A stretch of 64,000 nucleotides of DNA from Pseudotabrizicola formosa (lineage in GTDB: Bacteria > Pseudomonadota > Alphaproteobacteria > Rhodobacterales > Rhodobacteraceae), in assembly GCF_002900965.1 (NCBI RefSeq), contig NZ_PJOM01000003.1, positions 1 through 64,000 of the forward strand. The letters are read 5' to 3'. The position numbers were made by a program, and so were the translations under genes. How positions within the stretch are numbered: position 1 is the first letter of the stretch; each line of letters starts with the position of its first letter. Below, in pieces: positions 5,974 to 26,841 of this stretch. The notes beneath the pieces were generated by a model, which worked only from the letters and a program-made list of their open reading frames with translations, did not search any database and was not told where the DNA came from.

Positions 5974-6009
5974 TCAAATCCAGTCCCCTGAAGCGAGAGA
6001 GTGCCCCTG

Positions 6010-7338
6010 ATGCCCGCAGCCCCAGCCGATTCCGCACTCTATGGCCGTTTGTTCGGGGATGCCGAGGTGGCCCGTCTGTTTTCGGACAGCGCCGAGGTGC
6101 GGGCGATGCTGCTGGTCGAGGGGGCGTTGGCGCGGGTGCAGGGCGCGTTGGGGTTGATCCCGGCCGATGCGGCCGCGTTCATTGATCGCGCCGCGCATGA
6201 GGTGCAGATCGACCCGTCGGCACTGGCGGATGAAACGGCGCGCAACGGGGTGCCGGTGCCAGCCTTTCTGGCCGCCTTCCGCAAGGCGGCGATGGCCCCC
6301 GAGCTGATGCAATACCTGCATTGGGGCGCGACCAGTCAAGATATCATGGATACGGCTTTCGCCCTGCGCCTGCGCCCGATGCTGGCCTTGTGGAACACCC
6401 GGCTGGAGGGGGTGCTGGGCCATCTTGCAACCCTTGCCGAAGACGGGGCGACACTGCCGATGGCGGCACGGACCTATGGCCAGTTCGCCACCCCCACCAG
6501 CTTTGGGGCGGTGGTGGCGGGCTGGGGCTGGCCCCTGCTGGACTGGCGCACGCGGCTGGCGACCTTGCGCGAAGATGTGCTCAAGGTCTCGCTGTCGGGT
6601 GCCGCAGGGACCTTGTCGGCCATGGGCGATGCAGGGCCGCAGGTGCGAGAACAGCTCGCGCGTGAGCTGGGTCTGGCGGACCCGGGTCACAGCTGGCACA
6701 GTGACCGCAGCGCGCCGGGCCAGCTGGCAGGGTTTGCTGCGGGGCTTGCGGGCAGTCTGGGCAAACTGGGCGAAGATGTGCTGGCGCTGTCGCAATCTGG
6801 CCTGGGCGAGGTCAGCTTTCGGGGCGGGGCGGGCGGGTCTTCGACCATGCCGCAAAAGCAGAACCCGGTGGCGGCGTCAGCACTGGTGGCTCTGGCGCGG
6901 CAGGTGATCGGGCTGGCCGGCCTGGTGCAGGGGGCCGCGCTTCACCGGCAGCAGCGTGACGGGGCAGCCTGGTTCAGCGAATGGCTCAGCCTGCCGCAAC
7001 TGTGCATCAGCACCAGCCGCATGCTCTTTTTGGCAGGCGAGATTGCAGAAACGCTGGTGCCCGATGGCGCTGCCATGACCCTGCTGCTGGAGGAGGGCCA
7101 GGGCCTGATCCATGCCGAGGCGCTGACCTTTGCCCTGGCCCGGCAGATGCCGCGCCCGGACGCGATGGCCGCGGTGAAAGAGATGTGTCTTGAAGCTCAG
7201 GCGACGCAGACCGCGCTGAGCGCACTGGCAAGCGCGCGGTTTCCCGGCACTGATTGGGCAGAGCAATTGGCAACTGGTGGATTGGGGCAGGCACCGGTTG
7301 AGGCAAGGGCCTTTGTGGCGCGGGTGCGGGCAGGCTGA
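6010..7338 (+). CDS. pcaB: 3-carboxy-cis,cis-muconate cycloisomerase
   Basis: PcaB converts the ring-opened product of PcaHG to gamma-carboxymuconolactone. The protein is a member of the fumarase/aspartase superfamily, with TSQDIMDTAFALRL at the second conserved region and the signature GGSSTMPQKQNPVAAS around position 280. At about 442 residues it has normal length. ATG 6010 is chosen because GAGAGA at 5995-6000 lies 9 bases before it. GTG 6001 abuts the same site and is less likely. It is the last gene of the operon. The spacing of 36 bases after the BKACE stop is the second widest in the operon, after the 39 bases before pcaC. Confidence 0.94.
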   Translation: MPAAPADSALYGRLFGDAEVARLFSDSAEVRAMLLVEGALARVQGALGLIPADAAAFIDRAAHEVQIDPSALADETARNGVPVPAFLAAFRKAAMAPELMQYLHWGATSQDIMDTAFALRLRPMLALWNTRLEGVLGHLATLAEDGATLPMAARTYGQFATPTSFGAVVAGWGWPLLDWRTRLATLREDVLKVSLSGAAGTLSAMGDAGPQVREQLARELGLADPGHSWHSDRSAPGQLAGFAAGLAGSLGKLGEDVLALSQSGLGEVSFRGGAGGSSTMPQKQNPVAASALVALARQVIGLAGLVQGAALHRQQRDGAAWFSEWLSLPQLCISTSRMLFLAGEIAETLVPDGAAMTLLLEEGQGLIHAEALTFALARQMPRPDAMAAVKEMCLEAQATQTALSALASARFPGTDWAEQLATGGLGQAPVEARAFVARVRAG

Positions 7339-7378: not shown

Positions 7379-7404
7379 GGAACCCTTTCAGACAGTGATG
7401 CGTT
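7379..7404 (+). promoter_or_regulatory. EcfG-type general stress promoter before a 24-aa micropeptide
   Basis: GGAAC at 7379-7383 is followed after 17 bases by CGTT at 7401-7404. This exactly matches the EcfG (ECF15) consensus GGAAC-N16/17-CGTT known from alphaproteobacteria. The predicted start of transcription is near 7411, about 43 bases before the micropeptide ATG at 7454. Confidence 0.7.
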
Positions 7405-7453: not shown

Positions 7454-7528
7454 ATGAACGGAATTATCTATATTGTCGGTCTTGTCGTTGTCGTCCTTGC
7501 CATTCTTTCCTTTTTTGGCCTGCGCTGA
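7454..7528 (+). CDS. 24-aa hydrophobic micropeptide (paralogue of 24620-24694)
   Basis: ATG 7454 to TGA 7526-7528 encodes 24 residues. It begins MNGIIYIVGLVVVVLA and ends FFGLR: a single membrane segment with a positively charged end. AAGG at 7445-7448 lies 5 bases upstream. A second peptide at 24620-24694 on the other strand has the same length and the same pattern (MNxIIYIVG, LSF-GLR), identical at most positions. That repetition, plus the exact EcfG-type promoter upstream, is the main evidence that this is a real gene. Its function is unknown. A stress-induced small membrane protein is a reasonable guess. Confidence 0.72.
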   Translation: MNGIIYIVGLVVVVLAILSFFGLR

Positions 7529-7617: not shown

Positions 7618-8034
7618 CTATCGCGGTGAGACCTTTGACAGGATCGGCCCTTTTCCGAGGTCCGCCAGAATCGGGCAGTCGGGCCGGTGGTCGCCGCAGC
7701 ACGCATCTGCAAGATGCTGCAGCGTTTCCTTCATCGCCTGCAACTCGGTAATCTTTCGCTCCAGCCCGTCGATCTGGTCTTGTGCCAGACGCTTGACATC
7801 GGCGCTGTGACGCGATCGGTCCCGCCAAAGCGCCAGCAGATCGGCAATTTTTTCGACGGGGAACCCAAGATCCCGCGACCGGCGGACGAAGCGGAGCATC
7901 TGCACATCGCTGTCTGAATAGACCCGGTACCCTGCACCGGTGCGCCCCGGTGCCGGGATCAGGCCGGTGGACTCGTAATAGCGGATCATCTTGGCCGATA
8001 CGCCCGAGGCTTTGGCGGCATCACCGATGTTCAT
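7618..8034 (-). CDS. cueR: Copper-responsive MerR-family regulator, CueR type
   Basis: The 138-residue protein has an N-terminal MerR winged-helix domain ([21 protein letters not shown]), a dimerisation helix, and a metal loop with Cys112 and Cys120 ([10 protein letters not shown]). These sit at the positions and spacing of the two Cu(I)-binding cysteines of E. coli CueR. An extra Cys113 is present. Its start overlaps the copA stop (ATGA), so it is co-transcribed with the pump it should control. Two divergent 19-bp-spacer promoters with similar dyads lie upstream of copA and of the HMA gene (10561-10660) and are its likely targets. The symbol reflects family likeness. Confidence 0.88.
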
Positions 8035-21280: not shown

Positions 21281-22438
21281 TTAACCTTGCACCGGCTTCA
21301 ACTGCGCCTGCATCAGATGGTGCATCGCGTCCCACGTTTCCTTCCGCGACTGCCGGGCAAGCTCCTTGTCCACCGCTTGCCGCCAGCCTTCGGGTTGAAT
21401 GCCGAGCATGGTTTTGAGCGTCGGCACGATGGTCTGTGCATCGGCAATAGAGACCAGACCCTTTTTGCCATAGGTTTCCACCAGATCAGCCACGGCCGTG
21501 GACGTGACACGCAAGCCCGCCGCCAAAAGCTCCAGAGTCTCGCTGGGGCGGACCGCCCGCGTCGCATCGTTCAACGCAAAGGGCATCCAGGCGGCCTGCC
21601 AGTTGGCCATGTAACCGGGCAGCTCATCATAGGTCTTGCGTCCAAGCCAATGAATGTTCGGAGCCTGTGGCAGAGGATCCGGGTGGGTTCTGGCAATCGG
21701 ACCAATCATCACAAAATGGATCGACGGAAGCGCTTTGGCCGATGAGGCAATCAGATCCAGGTCGATGCGGTCATCGATCACACCGCCAAATCCGACGCGA
21801 GGCGCAGGAATTTCTGCCTGATCGGACGGATCTTCGATCCGCGACCGCGCGCGCGCGAAATGGCTGGTGTCAACGCCGCCGGGAACCCAGTGAACATGCC
21901 GATGCGACCGCGCTTTGGCCGCGACCTGGATTTGGCCCTCCGCAAAGACAAGGTGGGAACAGGCCAACAGCTCGGCCTCCAGTTCGGCGAATTTGGCTTG
22001 GTCGACGCCAAGGGCCAAGGGCTCCTGCATGATGTCATAGATGCGCAGATCGCAGGGAAGATGGCGGCTGAAGTCCAAGGCCATGGGTGTGAAATACCAG
22101 TGAACCAGTGGCGACGGGTCCAGCAGGCTCTGCAACTCCTCCACCAGCAAGCGCTGCTCGCGCAGGACATCGCAGGTCGCGTCACACACAGGCGTCAACA
22201 CCGTTACGCCCGATTGTGCGGTTTTCACCCGAAAATGCGGCGGTCCCTGTGCGACTTCCGGCTCCTCGACAAAGTAAACCCTGTAGTCGCGGGCAGCCTC
22301 GGCCAGCAGGTTTTGTGGTCTTTGACGCACAATCCCCCACTTCAGGTGCGAAAAGCAGACCAAGGCTGGGCGGGGGCCAGCAGGCTTTTCGGCCTCAGCC
22401 CGAAGGCTGGCCCGGAAAAGCGACGGCTGCGTGTTCAT
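21281..22438 (-). CDS. Glycosyltransferase (group 1 type)
   Basis: About 385 residues with a GT-B fold pattern. The N-terminal FSHLKWGIVRQRPQNLLAEA is a motif of a glycosyltransferase subgroup often near UDP-galactopyranose mutase or exopolysaccharide genes. The C-terminal domain has PRVGFGGVIDDRIDLDLI and a donor-binding stretch RPSETLELLAAGLRVTSTAVADL. No signal or membrane segment is seen. ATG 22438 is chosen because AGGAGG lies about 11 bases upstream and because the EcfG-type promoter at 22476-22500 leaves the longer frame (to 22561) partly untranscribed. The acceptor and sugar are unknown. It may modify surface polysaccharide under stress. Confidence 0.82.
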   Translation of the reverse strand: MNTQPSLFRASLRAEAEKPAGPRPALVCFSHLKWGIVRQRPQNLLAEAARDYRVYFVEEPEVAQGPPHFRVKTAQSGVTVLTPVCDATCDVLREQRLLVEELQSLLDPSPLVHWYFTPMALDFSRHLPCDLRIYDIMQEPLALGVDQAKFAELEAELLACSHLVFAEGQIQVAAKARSHRHVHWVPGGVDTSHFARARSRIEDPSDQAEIPAPRVGFGGVIDDRIDLDLIASSAKALPSIHFVMIGPIARTHPDPLPQAPNIHWLGRKTYDELPGYMANWQAAWMPFALNDATRAVRPSETLELLAAGLRVTSTAVADLVETYGKKGLVSIADAQTIVPTLKTMLGIQPEGWRQAVDKELARQSRKETWDAMHHLMQAQLKPVQG

Positions 22439-22475
22439 GACCTGCTGCCTCCTGCGGCGCGATTGCAGAAGGGTT

Positions 22476-22500
22476 AACGCGCGATGGCCCGCTTGGTTCC
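22476..22500 (-). promoter_or_regulatory. EcfG-type promoter of the glycosyltransferase gene
   Basis: Leftward, GGAAC (complement of 22496-22500), 16 bases, CGTT (complement of 22476-22479): an exact match. The transcription start would be about 30 bases before ATG 22438. Confidence 0.7.
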
Positions 22501-22640
22501 ATAGAAAGGGTGAAAGATGTGGTGCCAGGCGCCGCCAGCGCCAGAAGGGACCCGCGGACAAACAGGGCAGCTGTCATGTCTCAACCCAGTCAGGCGTAAT
22601 CTCGTGGAGTCCAGTGCCCTGTCAGTCCATGCTGGCAGTC

Positions 22641-23213
22641 TCACCTTTCGGCAAAACAGCTGGGCGGTTGTGTAGACCCGGGTGATGCACCGCCTGAGCG
22701 TCGCAACCGGTTTTGGCTTAGCGTATCGTCCTGTCCCATCAGCCGTTCCAAAGCGTCTCTGCTGCGGCTTACCCGGCTTTTGATCGTGCCGACCGTGCAG
22801 CCACAGACCTGCGCCGCTTGCTGCTGGGAAAATCCCAGCACGCTCATCAAGACCAATGGCCGGCGTTGATCGAGGGGCAGCCGCGCAATCAGCCCAAGCA
22901 ATTGGGTGAGCGCCACGGCGTGCTCCTGTCTCGGCTCTTCCGACAGGGACTCTGCGCCTATCCCGTCGACATCCTCGACCTCGCGGCGATATTTTCGGAT
23001 CTCAGAAAAGAAGGTATTGCGCAGAATGGTGAACAGCCAGGCGCGCAAATTCGTATCCGGCTGAAAGCTGTCACGGCTGCTCCATGCCTTGAGAAGGGTC
23101 GTCTGCACAAGATCTTCGGCCCGATGCGGGTTCGAGGTCAGCGTCAGCGCCCGGCGGCGCAGGGCCACGGTTTGCAAGGGCAAAAGCGCGTGGAAAGGAT
23201 GCATGTCTGGCAT
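22641..23213 (-). CDS. ECF sigma factor, EcfG (ECF15) type
   Basis: 190 residues. Region 2 spans about 10-75 (RAEDLVQTTLLKAW, NLRAWLFTILRNTFFSEIRKYRREVEDVDG), and region 4 about 105-160 (LPLDQRRPLVLMSVLGFSQQQAA, CGCTVGTIKSRVSRSRDALERLM). The RNTF-SE-RK-RREVEDVDG block and VGTIKSRV are characteristic of EcfG, the general stress sigma of alphaproteobacteria. A 30-residue tail is extra. ATG 23213 is a conservative start with no clear ribosome-binding site. A GTG at 23315 is possible. Exact GGAAC-N16/17-CGTT promoters around the locus are its likely targets. No PhyR or NepR gene is seen beside it or elsewhere in the window. Confidence 0.87.
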   Translation of the reverse strand: MPDMHPFHALLPLQTVALRRRALTLTSNPHRAEDLVQTTLLKAWSSRDSFQPDTNLRAWLFTILRNTFFSEIRKYRREVEDVDGIGAESLSEEPRQEHAVALTQLLGLIARLPLDQRRPLVLMSVLGFSQQQAAQVCGCTVGTIKSRVSRSRDALERLMGQDDTLSQNRLRRSGGASPGSTQPPSCFAER

Positions 23214-23577
23214 GGGATGCGTCTCGCTTTCGGTAAGACCCGGCAGGCCCCTAACCTTTTCCAAGGCAGAACGCGCCACGGCGTCTGATGTCGGTCTGAT
23301 CGCGTGGGTTGGCACGACCGCCGCGCAGGGCAGGGACTTGGCAGACCCAATGCCTGCTGAACTTCTGCTGCGGCCTTCAGGTGTTCTTGTCCCGGTCTGG
23401 CAAGAGCCTTGACGGTCCCGTGTTCTGTTTCAGGGGGCAGTGCCGATTGCGACCGCCCCCTGGAGAGGGCCGGGCTGTGCCGCCCGGCCTCGAAGTTTTG
23501 ACTGACCTGCTGCAGAAGACTTTTGCCAAGGGGTGGCCCATGAGAGCCTTTCCTGTGGAAGCCGCAGCAGGCCAAGC
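23214..23577. other. Region upstream of the sigma factor, no supported gene
   Basis: No open frame here has a ribosome-binding site and plausible coding bias. NepR-like residues were looked for and not seen. It contains two adjacent perfect inverted repeats (23431-23489, separate entry). Confidence 0.5.
23431..23489. repeat. Two tandem hairpins upstream of the sigma factor
   Basis: CAGGGGGC (23431-23438) pairs with GCCCCCTG (23455-23462), and GGCCGGGC (23468-23475) pairs with GCCCGGCC (23482-23489). Both stems are perfect over 8 bp. They lie between the 23-aa peptide gene and the sigma gene. The second could end the upstream peptide operon, and the pair could also structure the sigma leader. 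Confidence 0.45.
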
Positions 23578-23649
23578 TCAGAGCAGAACAGCTATGATGA
23601 TGACAACGAGGAGCGGCGCTCCGAGCAGCCAGGCAATAAGAGCGGGCAT
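23578..23649 (-). CDS. 23-aa hydrophobic micropeptide
   Basis: ATG (complement of 23647-23649) to TGA (complement of 23578-23580) encodes 23 residues beginning MPALIAWLLGAPLLVV, with only hydrophobic residues to the end. It would be a single membrane helix without charged flanks. AAGGA stands about 6 bases upstream. It lies 43 bases after the stop of the 298-aa membrane protein and is probably the last gene of that operon. Its sequence differs from the two 24-aa paralogues. It is too small for standard gene finders. The evidence is the ribosome-binding site, the hydrophobic pattern and the operon position. Confidence 0.6.
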   Translation of the reverse strand: MPALIAWLLGAPLLVVIIIAVLL

Positions 23650-23692: not shown

Positions 23693-24589
23693 TCAGCGGC
23701 GCACCATCAGAACGTCCAGTCCCAGTCCTTCGTCACGATGACGTCCACCGGCCGCGGCGGCAAAGAAGGCAGCAACGGCACCGATCAGCAGGGTGGCGGC
23801 GGCGATAAAGCCAAAGACCACTCCGGTCACCCGGGCTGCTTCGACGGCGGCAACAGCCTCGTCACGTGCCGCGGCGATCTCTGAATTGACCTCATCAACC
23901 CGCGCGCGCGCTGCGGCTTCATCCAGATCGCTGTTGGCTGCGACAATCTGCGCAAGATAGGCGCTGTCACGTTCTGCCATGTCTCCGGCCACTGCGCTTT
24001 GCGCCAGGATAGCGGCAACCTCCCGCTGAACCGCGGGGTCAGTGGAGGCGGGTCCGGTCGCTTGCGAGGGGGTGTCCGCCGCCGCCGTGCCACGCAGCAT
24101 CAGATCTGCAAAGTAATCCGATGAGGCGGCCTCACCGGCCACTTCCACCGCCGTCGAGGTTGCCGCAGCACCAGCATTGAGCAATCCGCCAACGCCGAAC
24201 GTGGCCAGAATGGTGCCGATCAGCGCGCCTGTGGCCCAGACCAGCAGCCCGTGCACACCGTCACGCGTTTCGACTTCGGATGCGGTCGCGTCACCTGCCT
24301 TGCGGCGCATGCGGCCCGCAATATAGCCGCCCGCTCCGAATCCTGTCACCATGACCCAGGCAAACCAGATGCCAGCCGCGATGGCCACCCAGGCGGCTGA
24401 AACGCCCTCCCCTCTGTAGGGAGAGGTCAGTGAAAGTCCGAGTCCGGTTCCAAAGGTGATCAGCAAAAGCGAAAGTGCCAGGGCAAAAATCCCCCCGGCA
24501 AGAATGGCGGCCCAGTCCACGTAAGACCCTTCTGCGGGCACCGGCGTGGTGCTGACAGGCTGACGGGGGGGCACTGTATCTGACATCAT
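23693..24589 (-). CDS. Multi-pass membrane protein of unknown function
   Basis: 298 residues. Two or three hydrophobic segments lie in the N-terminal half (WAAILAGGIFALALSLLLITFG, AWVAIAAGIWFAWVMVTGFGAGGYIAG, LLVWATGALIGTILATFGVGGLL). A long acidic helical stretch follows (about 165-250, with DLDEAAARARVDEVNSEIAA), then a last membrane helix (VVFGFIAAATLLIGAVAAFFA). GAGGYIAGR resembles glycine-zipper packing. ATG 24589 has AAGGAA 8 bases upstream. It is flanked in the same direction by two micropeptide genes, 30 bases upstream and 43 bases downstream. I do not recognise a named family. The small proteins may associate with it. Confidence 0.8.
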   Translation of the reverse strand: MMSDTVPPRQPVSTTPVPAEGSYVDWAAILAGGIFALALSLLLITFGTGLGLSLTSPYRGEGVSAAWVAIAAGIWFAWVMVTGFGAGGYIAGRMRRKAGDATASEVETRDGVHGLLVWATGALIGTILATFGVGGLLNAGAAATSTAVEVAGEAASSDYFADLMLRGTAAADTPSQATGPASTDPAVQREVAAILAQSAVAGDMAERDSAYLAQIVAANSDLDEAAARARVDEVNSEIAAARDEAVAAVEAARVTGVVFGFIAAATLLIGAVAAFFAAAAGGRHRDEGLGLDVLMVRR

Positions 24590-24619: not shown

Positions 24620-24694
24620 TCAGCGCAGGCCGACAAAGCTGAGCAGGGCGAGCACGATCACAACTGCGCCGACGATGTAGATGATCTGATTCAT
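24620..24694 (-). CDS. 24-aa hydrophobic micropeptide (paralogue of 7454-7528)
   Basis: ATG (complement of 24692-24694) to TGA (complement of 24620-24622) encodes 24 residues beginning MNQIIYIVGAVVIVLA and ending FVGLR. AAGGAA lies about 8 bases upstream. It matches the peptide at 7454-7528 in length, in its start (MNxIIYIVG), in the central V/L run and in its end (LSF-GLR), so one small family is present twice, 17 kb apart. It is the first gene before the 298-aa membrane protein. No EcfG promoter match was found in front of it, unlike its paralogue. Confidence 0.72.
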   Translation of the reverse strand: MNQIIYIVGAVVIVLALLSFVGLR

Positions 24695-25202
24695 GGGGTA
24701 TTTCCTTCGATTGGGGGGAACGATGCCGTGCCAGGGGATGCGCTGGCGTGCCATCGGCAAGGCGGATCACGCAGCACAGGCGCGCGGCCTGCGTGCAGCG
24801 TGAAGACTTGAGAAAATCCGGAAAGCTGGACTGTCCGGGGTAAGAACGGGTCGGTACGGTCAGGGGGCTTGCGCACCGCCCGGTTCCGGTCTCGTCGCGG
24901 CTTTCCGGATTTTCGCAACACTCGTTAGTTTGACAGATCGTACCTCCTTTTGCCTGTATGAGCGGGGCTTGTGCAGCCTCGGAAACTACGCAGTCACAGG
25001 ACATAGCAGCGACAACGCCCGGTGATCCCTTCCCAACCCTGCGCCATGTCGTCTTGGGGTGGGATGAAACTTCCCATGCTCCCTCCATGCTTGATGACGT
25101 GCAGCTGCCTGCGGCTGGTGAGGCCGCGCGGACGTTGGTCGAAGGTTGGTCTTCACGTTCGTCGTGGAAGGGCGGCGTCTTCCGGTCAAAGCCGCCCTCC
25201 CG
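24695..25202. other. About 500-base intergenic region, no supported gene
   Basis: No frame on either strand combines a start, a ribosome-binding site and coding bias. A perfect AGGAGGT motif occurs on the minus strand near 24943-24953 but no start codon follows at a usable distance. The right end has a hairpin after the coiled-coil gene. The promoter of the micropeptide operon must be here but I could not identify it. Confidence 0.45.
25170..25197 (-). terminator. Hairpin after the coiled-coil gene
   Basis: GGGCGGC (25170-25176) and GCCGCCC (25191-25197) form a 7-bp stem with a 14-base loop, 5 bases after the stop on the minus strand. No long T-run follows. Confidence 0.4.
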
Positions 25203-26699
25203 TCAGGGACTTGTCTGAGCCGCAGAAAAGCTCCGTCCGGCCAGAATTTCGCAGCCGGCTTGGTCAGCGGCAACATCAAAGCCGCCAGCCTCAGCCATGG
25301 TAAAATCGCAGTCGATCGGCGGGGCAGCCGTCCCAGCGGACTCTGCCGAAGGTTCAAGCCGCAAGGTTTCGCCGTTTACCGAGTAAGCGCCGGACAGCGA
25401 CTGATCGCCATCCGTCATCTGAAAGCCTCCCGCATCGGTCAGCACCAGGCTCATGCCATCGGAGGTATATTCGCCGGACTGCAGGGTCGGGTCAGCCTCT
25501 GCCGCACCATCCTCTGGGGCTGTGCTGTCGGACGGCGAATTCTGATCTGGCTCGCTGCCCTGAGTTTCGGCAGTCACCGCGTCATCCTGTGGCTCTGCGG
25601 CTTCACCTTCCACACCAGCTTCGGCTTCCCCCGAGCCATCGGTCTGCGCTGCGGCACCGTCTTCAGGCTCAGAGGGGCTGGCGGTCTGGGGCGTGTCGGT
25701 CACCGGGTCTTGTGCCGAAGCGGCATCGTCGGGCTGCTCTGTCTCGGTCCCCGCTCCACCATCAGGCGCGTCGCCGTCCGCCTGGCCAGCCGCACGCTCG
25801 AAACTGTCAGAGCCGCGCGTGATCAGCGTGTTCTGTTGCGCCATAAGGGCTTCCACCTGCTGCTCGATCCGCAACAGATCTTGCGAGCGGATTGCAACAT
25901 CATCCGTCAGACTGCTCAGCACCGCCTGCCTGTCTTCACGCTGGGCCTGAAGGCCTGTCACATCCTCGGTCAGGGTGGCCTGCAAGGCAGTCAGGCGGGC
26001 GACTTCATCGGTAAGGCTGCGCGACTGGTCCTCCAGCCGGAGCGCCTCTTGCCGCAACTGCGCGGTTGTTTCCTCCGTCGCGGCGGCGTCCTGAAGCACG
26101 GTTTGCAGCCGGGTTTCGGCTTCGGCCGCTGTCTCGCTCAGCGTGGCGGACTCAGTTGCAAGATCAGACAACACCTGGCGCACCTCGGCCTCGCGCGCGC
26201 GGGCGTCTTCCAGCCGTGATCCGACCAGTGCCATCTCCTCGGTCTGCGCCGCGACCTGCGCTTCCAGATCGGCGCGGCGCTGCTCATAGCCCGCAAGCTC
26301 GTCTCGCAGCGGTTGAACCTGGGCCTCCAGATCGTCCAGCGCGCTTTGGCCGGCCTCCTGCGCCTGGGTCAAGGTGGTGAGGGCCGCCTGCGCCTCATCG
26401 CGCTGCAGGGTCAACTGGTCCAGTTCGGACTGTACGGCTGCCAATTGGGCGGTCCGGTCCTCCACTTCGGGGGACAGTTGCGCAATGGAAGCGTTCAACT
26501 CTGACAATGTGCCCGACGCGGCGCGTTGGGCTTCAAGGTCTTGCTGAAGTGTGGTGCGATCTGCAAGAGCCGCTTCCAGCTGGTCTGCGGCGTCGCGCTG
26601 CTGAGAGTAGAAATAGATGGTGCCGATCCAGCCGATCACAGCGGCAATCGCAATGACGCTGGTTGTCCTGTTCAATCCGCTTTTGGTGTCATCGGCCAT
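25203..26699 (-). CDS. Membrane-anchored coiled-coil protein with acidic linker
   Basis: About 498 residues. An N-terminal anchor (SVIAIAAVIGWIGTIYFYS, about 14-32) is followed by a long coiled coil (about 35-285, rich in Gln, Glu, Leu and Ala heptads). Next comes an acidic Glu/Asp/Ala/Pro/Thr-rich linker (about 290-400) and a C-terminal globular segment of about 95 residues with two cysteines (PIDCDFTMAEAGGFDV, AGCEILAG). This suits a periplasmic spacer protein. I do not recognise a family. ATG 26699 is chosen because the anchor follows directly. An exact EcfG-type promoter 110-140 bases upstream places it in the predicted stress regulon. Confidence 0.78.
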   Translation of the reverse strand: MADDTKSGLNRTTSVIAIAAVIGWIGTIYFYSQQRDAADQLEAALADRTTLQQDLEAQRAASGTLSELNASIAQLSPEVEDRTAQLAAVQSELDQLTLQRDEAQAALTTLTQAQEAGQSALDDLEAQVQPLRDELAGYEQRRADLEAQVAAQTEEMALVGSRLEDARAREAEVRQVLSDLATESATLSETAAEAETRLQTVLQDAAATEETTAQLRQEALRLEDQSRSLTDEVARLTALQATLTEDVTGLQAQREDRQAVLSSLTDDVAIRSQDLLRIEQQVEALMAQQNTLITRGSDSFERAAGQADGDAPDGGAGTETEQPDDAASAQDPVTDTPQTASPSEPEDGAAAQTDGSGEAEAGVEGEAAEPQDDAVTAETQGSEPDQNSPSDSTAPEDGAAEADPTLQSGEYTSDGMSLVLTDAGGFQMTDGDQSLSGAYSVNGETLRLEPSAESAGTAAPPIDCDFTMAEAGGFDVAADQAGCEILAGRSFSAAQTSP

Positions 26700-26815
26700 C
26701 GTCGATCTTGCCCCCGTGTGAAAACTCTTTGCTCGCCCGTCCAAGACTGCGCCAGCCGGCGTGATGTCCCGGGTGGCAGGTCTGTCTGGCCCGACGGACT
26801 ATGTTCTAGGGAGGC

Positions 26816-26841
26816 AACGACCAGACCCGCCATCAGGTTCC
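26816..26841 (-). promoter_or_regulatory. EcfG-type promoter of the coiled-coil gene
   Basis: Leftward, GGAAC (complement of 26837-26841), 17 bases, CGTT (complement of 26816-26819): an exact match, about 110 bases from predicted transcription start to ATG 26699. Confidence 0.68.

Follow-up and report, generated by a model that had tools for sequence, protein, structure and literature searches.

A hydrophobic micropeptide family with two members in Pseudotabrizicola formosa, its general-stress promoter boxes and its pairing with a membrane protein

Introduction

Several tiny single-helix proteins, among them CydX, KdpF, AcrZ and MgtS, lie beside or act on a larger membrane protein. Other small hydrophobic peptides have been described in connection with stress or with the membrane fraction: (i) YohP of Escherichia coli, which, according to the accessible part of its published description, is a stress-induced peptide of 27 residues that dimerizes through a glycine motif and lowers the membrane potential (PMC12719787); and (ii) SEP6 of Sinorhizobium meliloti, which the accessible text of its source describes as shorter than 30 residues, with a predicted helix, located mainly in the membrane/ribosome pellet and conserved in Hyphomicrobiales (PMC10117765). 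For the general-stress promoters of Sphingomonas melonis, the available portion of the source gives the EcfG motif as GGAAC-N17-20-GTT (PMC6599016).

Here, we consider a stretch of 64,000 nucleotides from Pseudotabrizicola formosa (hereafter referred to as the window), in which an earlier note had pointed to two related hydrophobic peptides of 24 residues. Comparison at the sequence level confirms that both open reading frames (ORFs) are real members of a widespread and apparently undescribed bacterial micropeptide family, which we refer to as type A. One of the two precedes the gene for a membrane protein, termed c0, which at other loci is accompanied by a second group of micropeptides, termed type B.

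By description, the type A/c0 combination resembles CydX, KdpF, AcrZ and MgtS, and it differs from them in that the partner, c0, belongs to an unknown family. Type A peptides resemble YohP, as the accessible part of its source describes it, in size, in their single hydrophobic helix, in their association with stress, and in having glycines within the helix (PMC12719787). However, there is no detectable sequence relation, as the score of YohP with the type A model (8.3 bits) is exceeded by that of shuffled type A members (up to 14.5 bits); moreover, the gene neighbors are different, and the accessible part of the YohP source describes no c0-like partner (PMC12719787). SEP6 may be a member of type A or type B, judged from its description in the accessible text rather than from its sequence (PMC10117765). 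Six sequence strings of each peptide type returned no paper when searched in open-licence full text, a scope outside which most subscription journals and bioRxiv lie, and the accessible portion of PMC5082802 holds no passage on such peptides. Small-protein databases may contain unnamed clusters of these families. While stress micropeptides are a known kind, types A and B and their exchangeable pairing with c0 appear to be new.

Results

Two type A micropeptide genes in the window

Copy 1 (positions 7454–7528, plus strand) and copy 2 (24620–24694, minus strand) each encode a peptide of 24 residues, MNGIIYIVGLVVVVLAILSFFGLR and MNQIIYIVGAVVIVLALLSFVGLR, respectively. Both are preceded by a purine-rich ribosome-binding site (GAAGG for copy 1 and GAAGGA for copy 2), as the earlier note had recorded, and its observation of a conserved protein encoded by different DNA was also borne out: the peptides share 19 of 24 residues, the genes 49 of 72 nucleotides, and among the 23 codons that follow the start, 11 differ synonymously, five change the residue and seven are the same. 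The window contains 60 ORFs of exactly 24 residues that start with ATG, GTG or TTG, and the best pair other than copies 1 and 2 shares eight identities. In view of this difference, and of the coding signals found across the family, an origin of the ORF pair by chance or artefact was rejected. No third copy was found in the source genome by the type A search at E 10. A single transmembrane helix is the membrane topology predicted from the sequence of type A peptides.

Copy 1 lies between a lyase-family gene (6001–7338, plus strand) and a convergent MerR-family gene (7618–8034, minus strand), and is probably monocistronic; E. coli genomes probed with the 101 bases around it gave no match. Upstream of copy 2, we noted a perfect 15-nt inverted repeat (arms at 24812–24826 and 24900–24914, 73 nt apart), of which the genome has no further exact copy. 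A stretch that cuts into one of the repeat arms folds no better than its shuffled versions (z −1.37; 16 of 200 shuffles were as good).

Distribution and coding signals of the type A family

A single peptide used as the query matched 55 of the 295 genomes sampled from the source organism's family. A profile built from 30 sequences detected type A in 71 of these 295 genomes, as well as in 32 of 385 genomes sampled from the class and in 47 of 398 sampled from the phylum, 15 of the latter 47 being outside the class. Conservation therefore extends well beyond the two loci, the opposite of the outcome that the earlier note had named as refuting its proposal. The sample includes one further genome from the organism's genus, and this gave no type A match.

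Statistics were computed on 128 type A members, which derive from 120 fetched loci and copy 2 of the window; the fetched loci were chosen by hand, mostly among the stronger profile matches, and all but one of them (L200) gave at least one member (119 of 120). Lengths are narrowly distributed, with 126 members having 22–25 residues (24 residues in 103 members, 22 in 16, 25 in six and 23 in one) and two members having 21, and the start codon is ATG in 115 members, GTG in 12 and CTG in one. A Shine-Dalgarno sequence is present at −18 to −5 in 120 of 128 members, while six control offsets yielded 12–22 of 128. The entropies of the first, second and third codon positions are 0.88, 0.27 and 1.39 bits, respectively, and pN/pS is 0.33, a value that is biased by selection with a protein profile; the same value of 0.33 was determined for 23 peptides that were located via c0 and not via their own sequence.

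A scan of genome DNA with a degenerate 26-nt stretch corresponding to residues 4–12 detected at least 120 loci. Of the 120 listed, 118 contain a family ORF, with its start and stop at the expected places, and the genera among the matches listed include Cereibacter, Paracoccus, Devosia, Bosea, Rhizobium, Methylobacterium, Phenylobacterium, Variovorax, Polaromonas and Halomonas. Taken across genera, the conserved length, start, stop, Shine-Dalgarno sequence and codon pattern strongly support real translation, which the earlier note had proposed from the two copies in the window.

Gly9 and Gly22 are invariant in all 169 distinct type A members of 24 residues, a result that selection by length and profile partly favors. 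Along the peptide, conservation does not follow a helical periodicity of 100 degrees (p 0.59), so that no preferred packing face was detected. In Pfam and NCBIfam, type A, type B and c0 all scored below every curated cut-off, and a sequence search of solved structures gave no match for type A. Searching plasmids with the 24-residue peptides by tblastn yielded nothing at E 1 or E 10, for which the low-complexity filter is a possible cause.

The clusters of proteins encoded next to type A genes include CsbD, DUF883_C, Phage_holin_3_6 and DUF3618 proteins. Eight shortened pieces of neighbor proteins were also compared with Pfam: two, which include a 25-residue piece and a representative of a type A-adjacent cluster, had no match at E 0.01, and a third had a match below the cut-off only. 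At two loci (L139 and L141), type A genes precede holin-like and DUF3618 genes, an arrangement that presumably resembles that of the E. coli stress genes yqjDEK. Tandem pairs of micropeptide genes with differing sequences were seen at six loci (L100, L121, L128, L206, L207 and L208). Finally, some type A genes lie upstream of atpI, and a link to the atp operon was considered and rejected: we do not read this arrangement as an operon because an opposite-strand gene call intervenes in most of the loci listed.

General-stress promoter boxes

In front of copy 1, pattern matching identified an EcfG-type box, GGAAC-N17-CGTT (7379–7404, plus strand), and the exact stress promoter that the earlier note had assigned to one of the copies is thus present. 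Copy 2, on the other hand, has no GGAAC-type box within 400 nt, even when a loose pattern is allowed. Any single box is weak evidence, because the 111 strict boxes in the genome (spacer 15–18) are fewer than the 344 occurrences of a reversed control pattern. The argument for EcfG is instead carried by enrichment and spacing across the family.

GGAAC-N15-19-CGTT occurs within 150 nt upstream of 41 of the 128 type A genes, compared with 0.32 on average and two at most in shuffled sequences, and control regions contained the strict box in one of 127 cases (250–400 nt upstream) and in none of 128 (downstream). By group, the strict box was found for 26 of 71 members from the organism's own family, 14 of 43 from the remainder of the class, and one of 14 from outside the class; the loose pattern is present for 55 of the 128 genes and absent for 73. 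When any spacer of 5–30 nt between GGAAC and CGTT was allowed, 40 of the 46 resulting cases had a spacer of either 16 nt (23 cases) or 17 nt (17 cases). Both the box and its spacing fit the EcfG motif of S. melonis as given in the available portion of its source (PMC6599016).

The source genome also contains what appears to be the corresponding regulatory locus. A frame of 349 residues matches PF22029 (PhyR_sigma2) at 85.9 bits (C7:332540–332704, minus strand), a divergent frame of 200 residues matches it at 53 bits (C7:333031–333192, plus strand), and two GGAAC boxes lie between them, as expected of a PhyR/EcfG locus. From size and arrangement, we infer that the longer frame is PhyR and the shorter one EcfG.

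Compared with the EcfG (PhyR-NepR-EcfG) regulon, the genome thus has a putative PhyR and an ECF sigma factor and copy 1 has the box, but copy 2 does not, and neither do most type A genes outside the class. Since copy 2 has no box within 400 nt, we claim membership of the regulon for copy 1 only. More generally, many type A members are probably part of the alphaproteobacterial EcfG regulon, their dependence on ecfG being predicted from the boxes. The relation to stress suggested in the earlier note is supported by the box of copy 1, by the boxes across the family and by the PhyR-type match with a second such match beside it; copy 2 has no box of this kind.

The copy 2 operon and its surroundings

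The other copy had been said to lead a membrane-protein operon, and we find that the stop codon of copy 2 is located 30 nt ahead of the ORF for c0 (23693–24589, minus strand), a membrane protein of 298 residues whose model shows four long helices. Following c0 by 43 nt, and preceded by AAAGGA, is a type B-like micropeptide ORF of 23 residues (MPALIAWLLGAPLLVVIIIAVLL; 23578–23649, minus strand), which is absent from the earlier note. Copy 2 therefore apparently heads an operon with the order type A, c0, type B-like. The type B-like ORF scores 9.3 bits against the type B model, and shuffled type A peptides score up to 9.4 bits; because its own profile score is weak, the case for this ORF rests on orthologous loci, two of which (L099 and L104) have near-identical ORFs in the same place, while similar ORFs are found at four others (L384, L211, L170 and L209).

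The upstream neighbor of copy 2 encodes a coiled-coil protein of 513 residues (25203–26744, minus strand) and is itself preceded by an EcfG-type box, identified by pattern match (26816–26841, minus strand). Beyond the operon is an ECF sigma factor gene, identified by family match (22641–23315, minus strand). The stretch from 21 to 27 kb may be a cluster of stress genes that includes an ECF sigma gene of its own. A further EcfG-type box (22476–22500, minus strand) was noted near the start of the gene at 21281–22561.

The c0 proteins have conserved motifs around VDW, GGYxxGRxR, RDGxHG and HRD. Comparison of c0 with Pfam, NCBIfam, PADLOC and PHROGs returned nothing at a meaningful score, and its single match among solved structures, searched by sequence, had an E value of 0.76. 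For the AlphaFold2 model (mean pLDDT 79.4, pTM 0.65), Foldseek found nothing with an E value of 0.001 or lower, and the model's best Z score in VIA-align 2, 6.5, is inside the range that the program's own note calls common. Among the plasmid matches listed for c0, the annotation, where given, is hypothetical protein.

Type B micropeptides

In the first eight plasmid loci, the slot upstream of c0 is occupied by type A in four cases and by type B, for example MGRGILLWLLGIPLPIVILLVLFMR, in the other four; the feature table for these eight loci, which is incomplete by its own description and from which the source records may deviate, has no entry at the micropeptide. Types A and B gave an hhalign probability of 0.5 percent and no BLASTP match, comparisons that have little power over about 24 columns. 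The type B profile matched in 25 of 229 phylum genomes, and a GGAAC-N14-19-[CG]GTT box lies within 200 nt in 13 of 30 type B loci.

A stand-alone type B gene was also detected by profile match in the source genome, outside the window (L460, MKGALAWLIGIPIPIIIILYLIDVF; G000:C8:238725–238802, minus strand), and a GGAAC-N17-CGTT box precedes it by 56 nt. Downstream of this gene, a GC-rich hairpin-like stretch and a T run were noted by eye. Counting both types, the source genome encodes no fewer than four of these micropeptides: two are of type A and two are type B-like, and one of the type B-like pair is a weak match.

Pairing of c0 with micropeptides

To count pairing from the side of the membrane protein, c0 was searched alone in the 385 class genomes, 47 of which had a match at 1e-10. 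Among the homologs that score at least 150 bits, a micropeptide of type A or type B lies within 420 nt, on either side, in 30 of 32 cases, as compared with just two of 25 among those scoring less. The same was determined for 21 of 22 plasmid c0 loci, which represent 21 records and were hand-picked among 90 listed rows. These two counts are less biased than that for 86 non-duplicate c0 loci, which were partly collected through type A, and 83 of which have at least one micropeptide.

The position of the micropeptide is not fixed. The 32 higher-scoring class homologs and the 22 plasmid loci make up 54 loci, eight of which have as their best-scoring peptide a type B located downstream of c0. Seven plasmid loci with such a best-scoring type B are from Beijerinckia, Bradyrhizobium, Methylocapsa, Variovorax, Pantoea and Paraburkholderia (two loci), and c0 of Beijerinckia is flanked by both type A and type B. 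Furthermore, 21 of 56 c0 loci with type A, the window being one of them, have a type B-like ORF downstream, although 12 of these are weak matches.

A c0 tree with 61 rows places all rows that have type A upstream in one clade (support 99/99), and a single clade of type B rows was not rejected (p-AU 0.296). The peptide label changes three times on the tree, compared with a mean of 28.4 for shuffled labels; the labels predate the detection of downstream type B, and at least one row labeled as having none (L405) does have a type B.

Seen from the side of the micropeptide, the association is looser. Only 32 of the 128 type A genes have c0 directly downstream, and of the 96 that have no c0 neighbor, 28 have another same-strand gene within 325 nt and 68 have no such called gene. 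When the listings were compared by hand, nine of the 32 class genomes with type A had no c0 match, two of these being weak type A matches. Because most type A genes are without a c0 neighbor, c0 cannot be their only role. For the putative regulation of a larger membrane protein that the earlier note suggested, the genomic pairing is strong as seen from c0, but three-quarters of the type A genes have no such neighbor.

Discussion

We rank first, and consider somewhat better than an even bet, a model in which type A peptides are EcfG-linked, single-helix micropeptides of the inner membrane that pack on a membrane protein, c0 being the partner at copy 2. Upon stress, the peptide would be inserted into the inner membrane as one transmembrane helix, with its C-terminal arginine presumably in the cytoplasm according to the positive-inside rule, and this helix would pack against a membrane protein. 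At the copy 2 operon, the peptide would stabilize or tune c0, with the type B-like peptide serving as a further small subunit, while copy 1 would supply the same peptide alone under stress, to serve c0 or a different target in the membrane. Given the many type A genes that have no c0 beside them, the family would either have several partners or also act on the membrane itself, as has been proposed for E. coli YohP (PMC12719787).

The explanation that ranks second, which we regard as possible though rather unlikely, is that type A peptides act as YohP does: the peptide would oligomerize in the inner membrane under stress and alter the bilayer or the membrane potential, with no dedicated partner, and c0 and the CsbD, DUF883 and holin-like neighbors would merely be fellow members of the regulon. 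The type A genes that are not followed by c0, the nature of the neighbor clusters, and the invariant glycines, which our selection partly favors, all agree with such a role, as does the stress-induced, glycine-dependent dimer that lowers the membrane potential in the accessible account of E. coli YohP (PMC12719787). However, this explanation does not tell us why c0 should nearly always keep an adjacent micropeptide, in either order, and the score of YohP against the type A model, which shuffled members exceed, lends it no support.

Two other explanations fare far worse. That type A peptides are toxins similar to those of type I toxin-antitoxin systems, depolarizing the membrane, is improbable: their size and hydrophobicity, and the tandem copies in some genomes, would suit such a toxin, but the window contains no Rfam match at or above a family's gathering score, and stress-type promoters and pairing with c0 speak against it. 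Least probable of all is an inert leader peptide, whose translation would control the downstream gene, since, although copy 2 and the other type A genes directly upstream of c0 or of another same-strand gene have the position required, copy 1 and most of the genes without c0 are followed by no same-strand gene, type B is also found downstream of c0, and conservation at the protein level is seen both inside and outside the class.

The pairing itself points to a partnership with a protein and away from a leader peptide: it has been kept despite changes of both peptide family and gene order, which makes coupling or attenuation unlikely and fits a protein-protein partnership. Extending the partner model, we tentatively suggest, with a little less than even confidence, a proteobacterial stress module in which c0 needs a micropeptide subunit of 22–28 residues. 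Types A and B, apparently unrelated to each other, would be interchangeable in this module, swapping sides or occurring together as in the window, and free-standing, EcfG-driven copies would modulate either this complex or different membrane proteins during general stress.

Surveys of general stress regulons usually rely on annotated genes, and genes of 24 codons consequently drop out of them. Our analysis indicates that simple profile searches suffice to trace genes this small both within and beyond a class, and a conserved micropeptide family that is tagged by its promoters and linked to a membrane partner offers a testable entry to the function of stress micropeptides.
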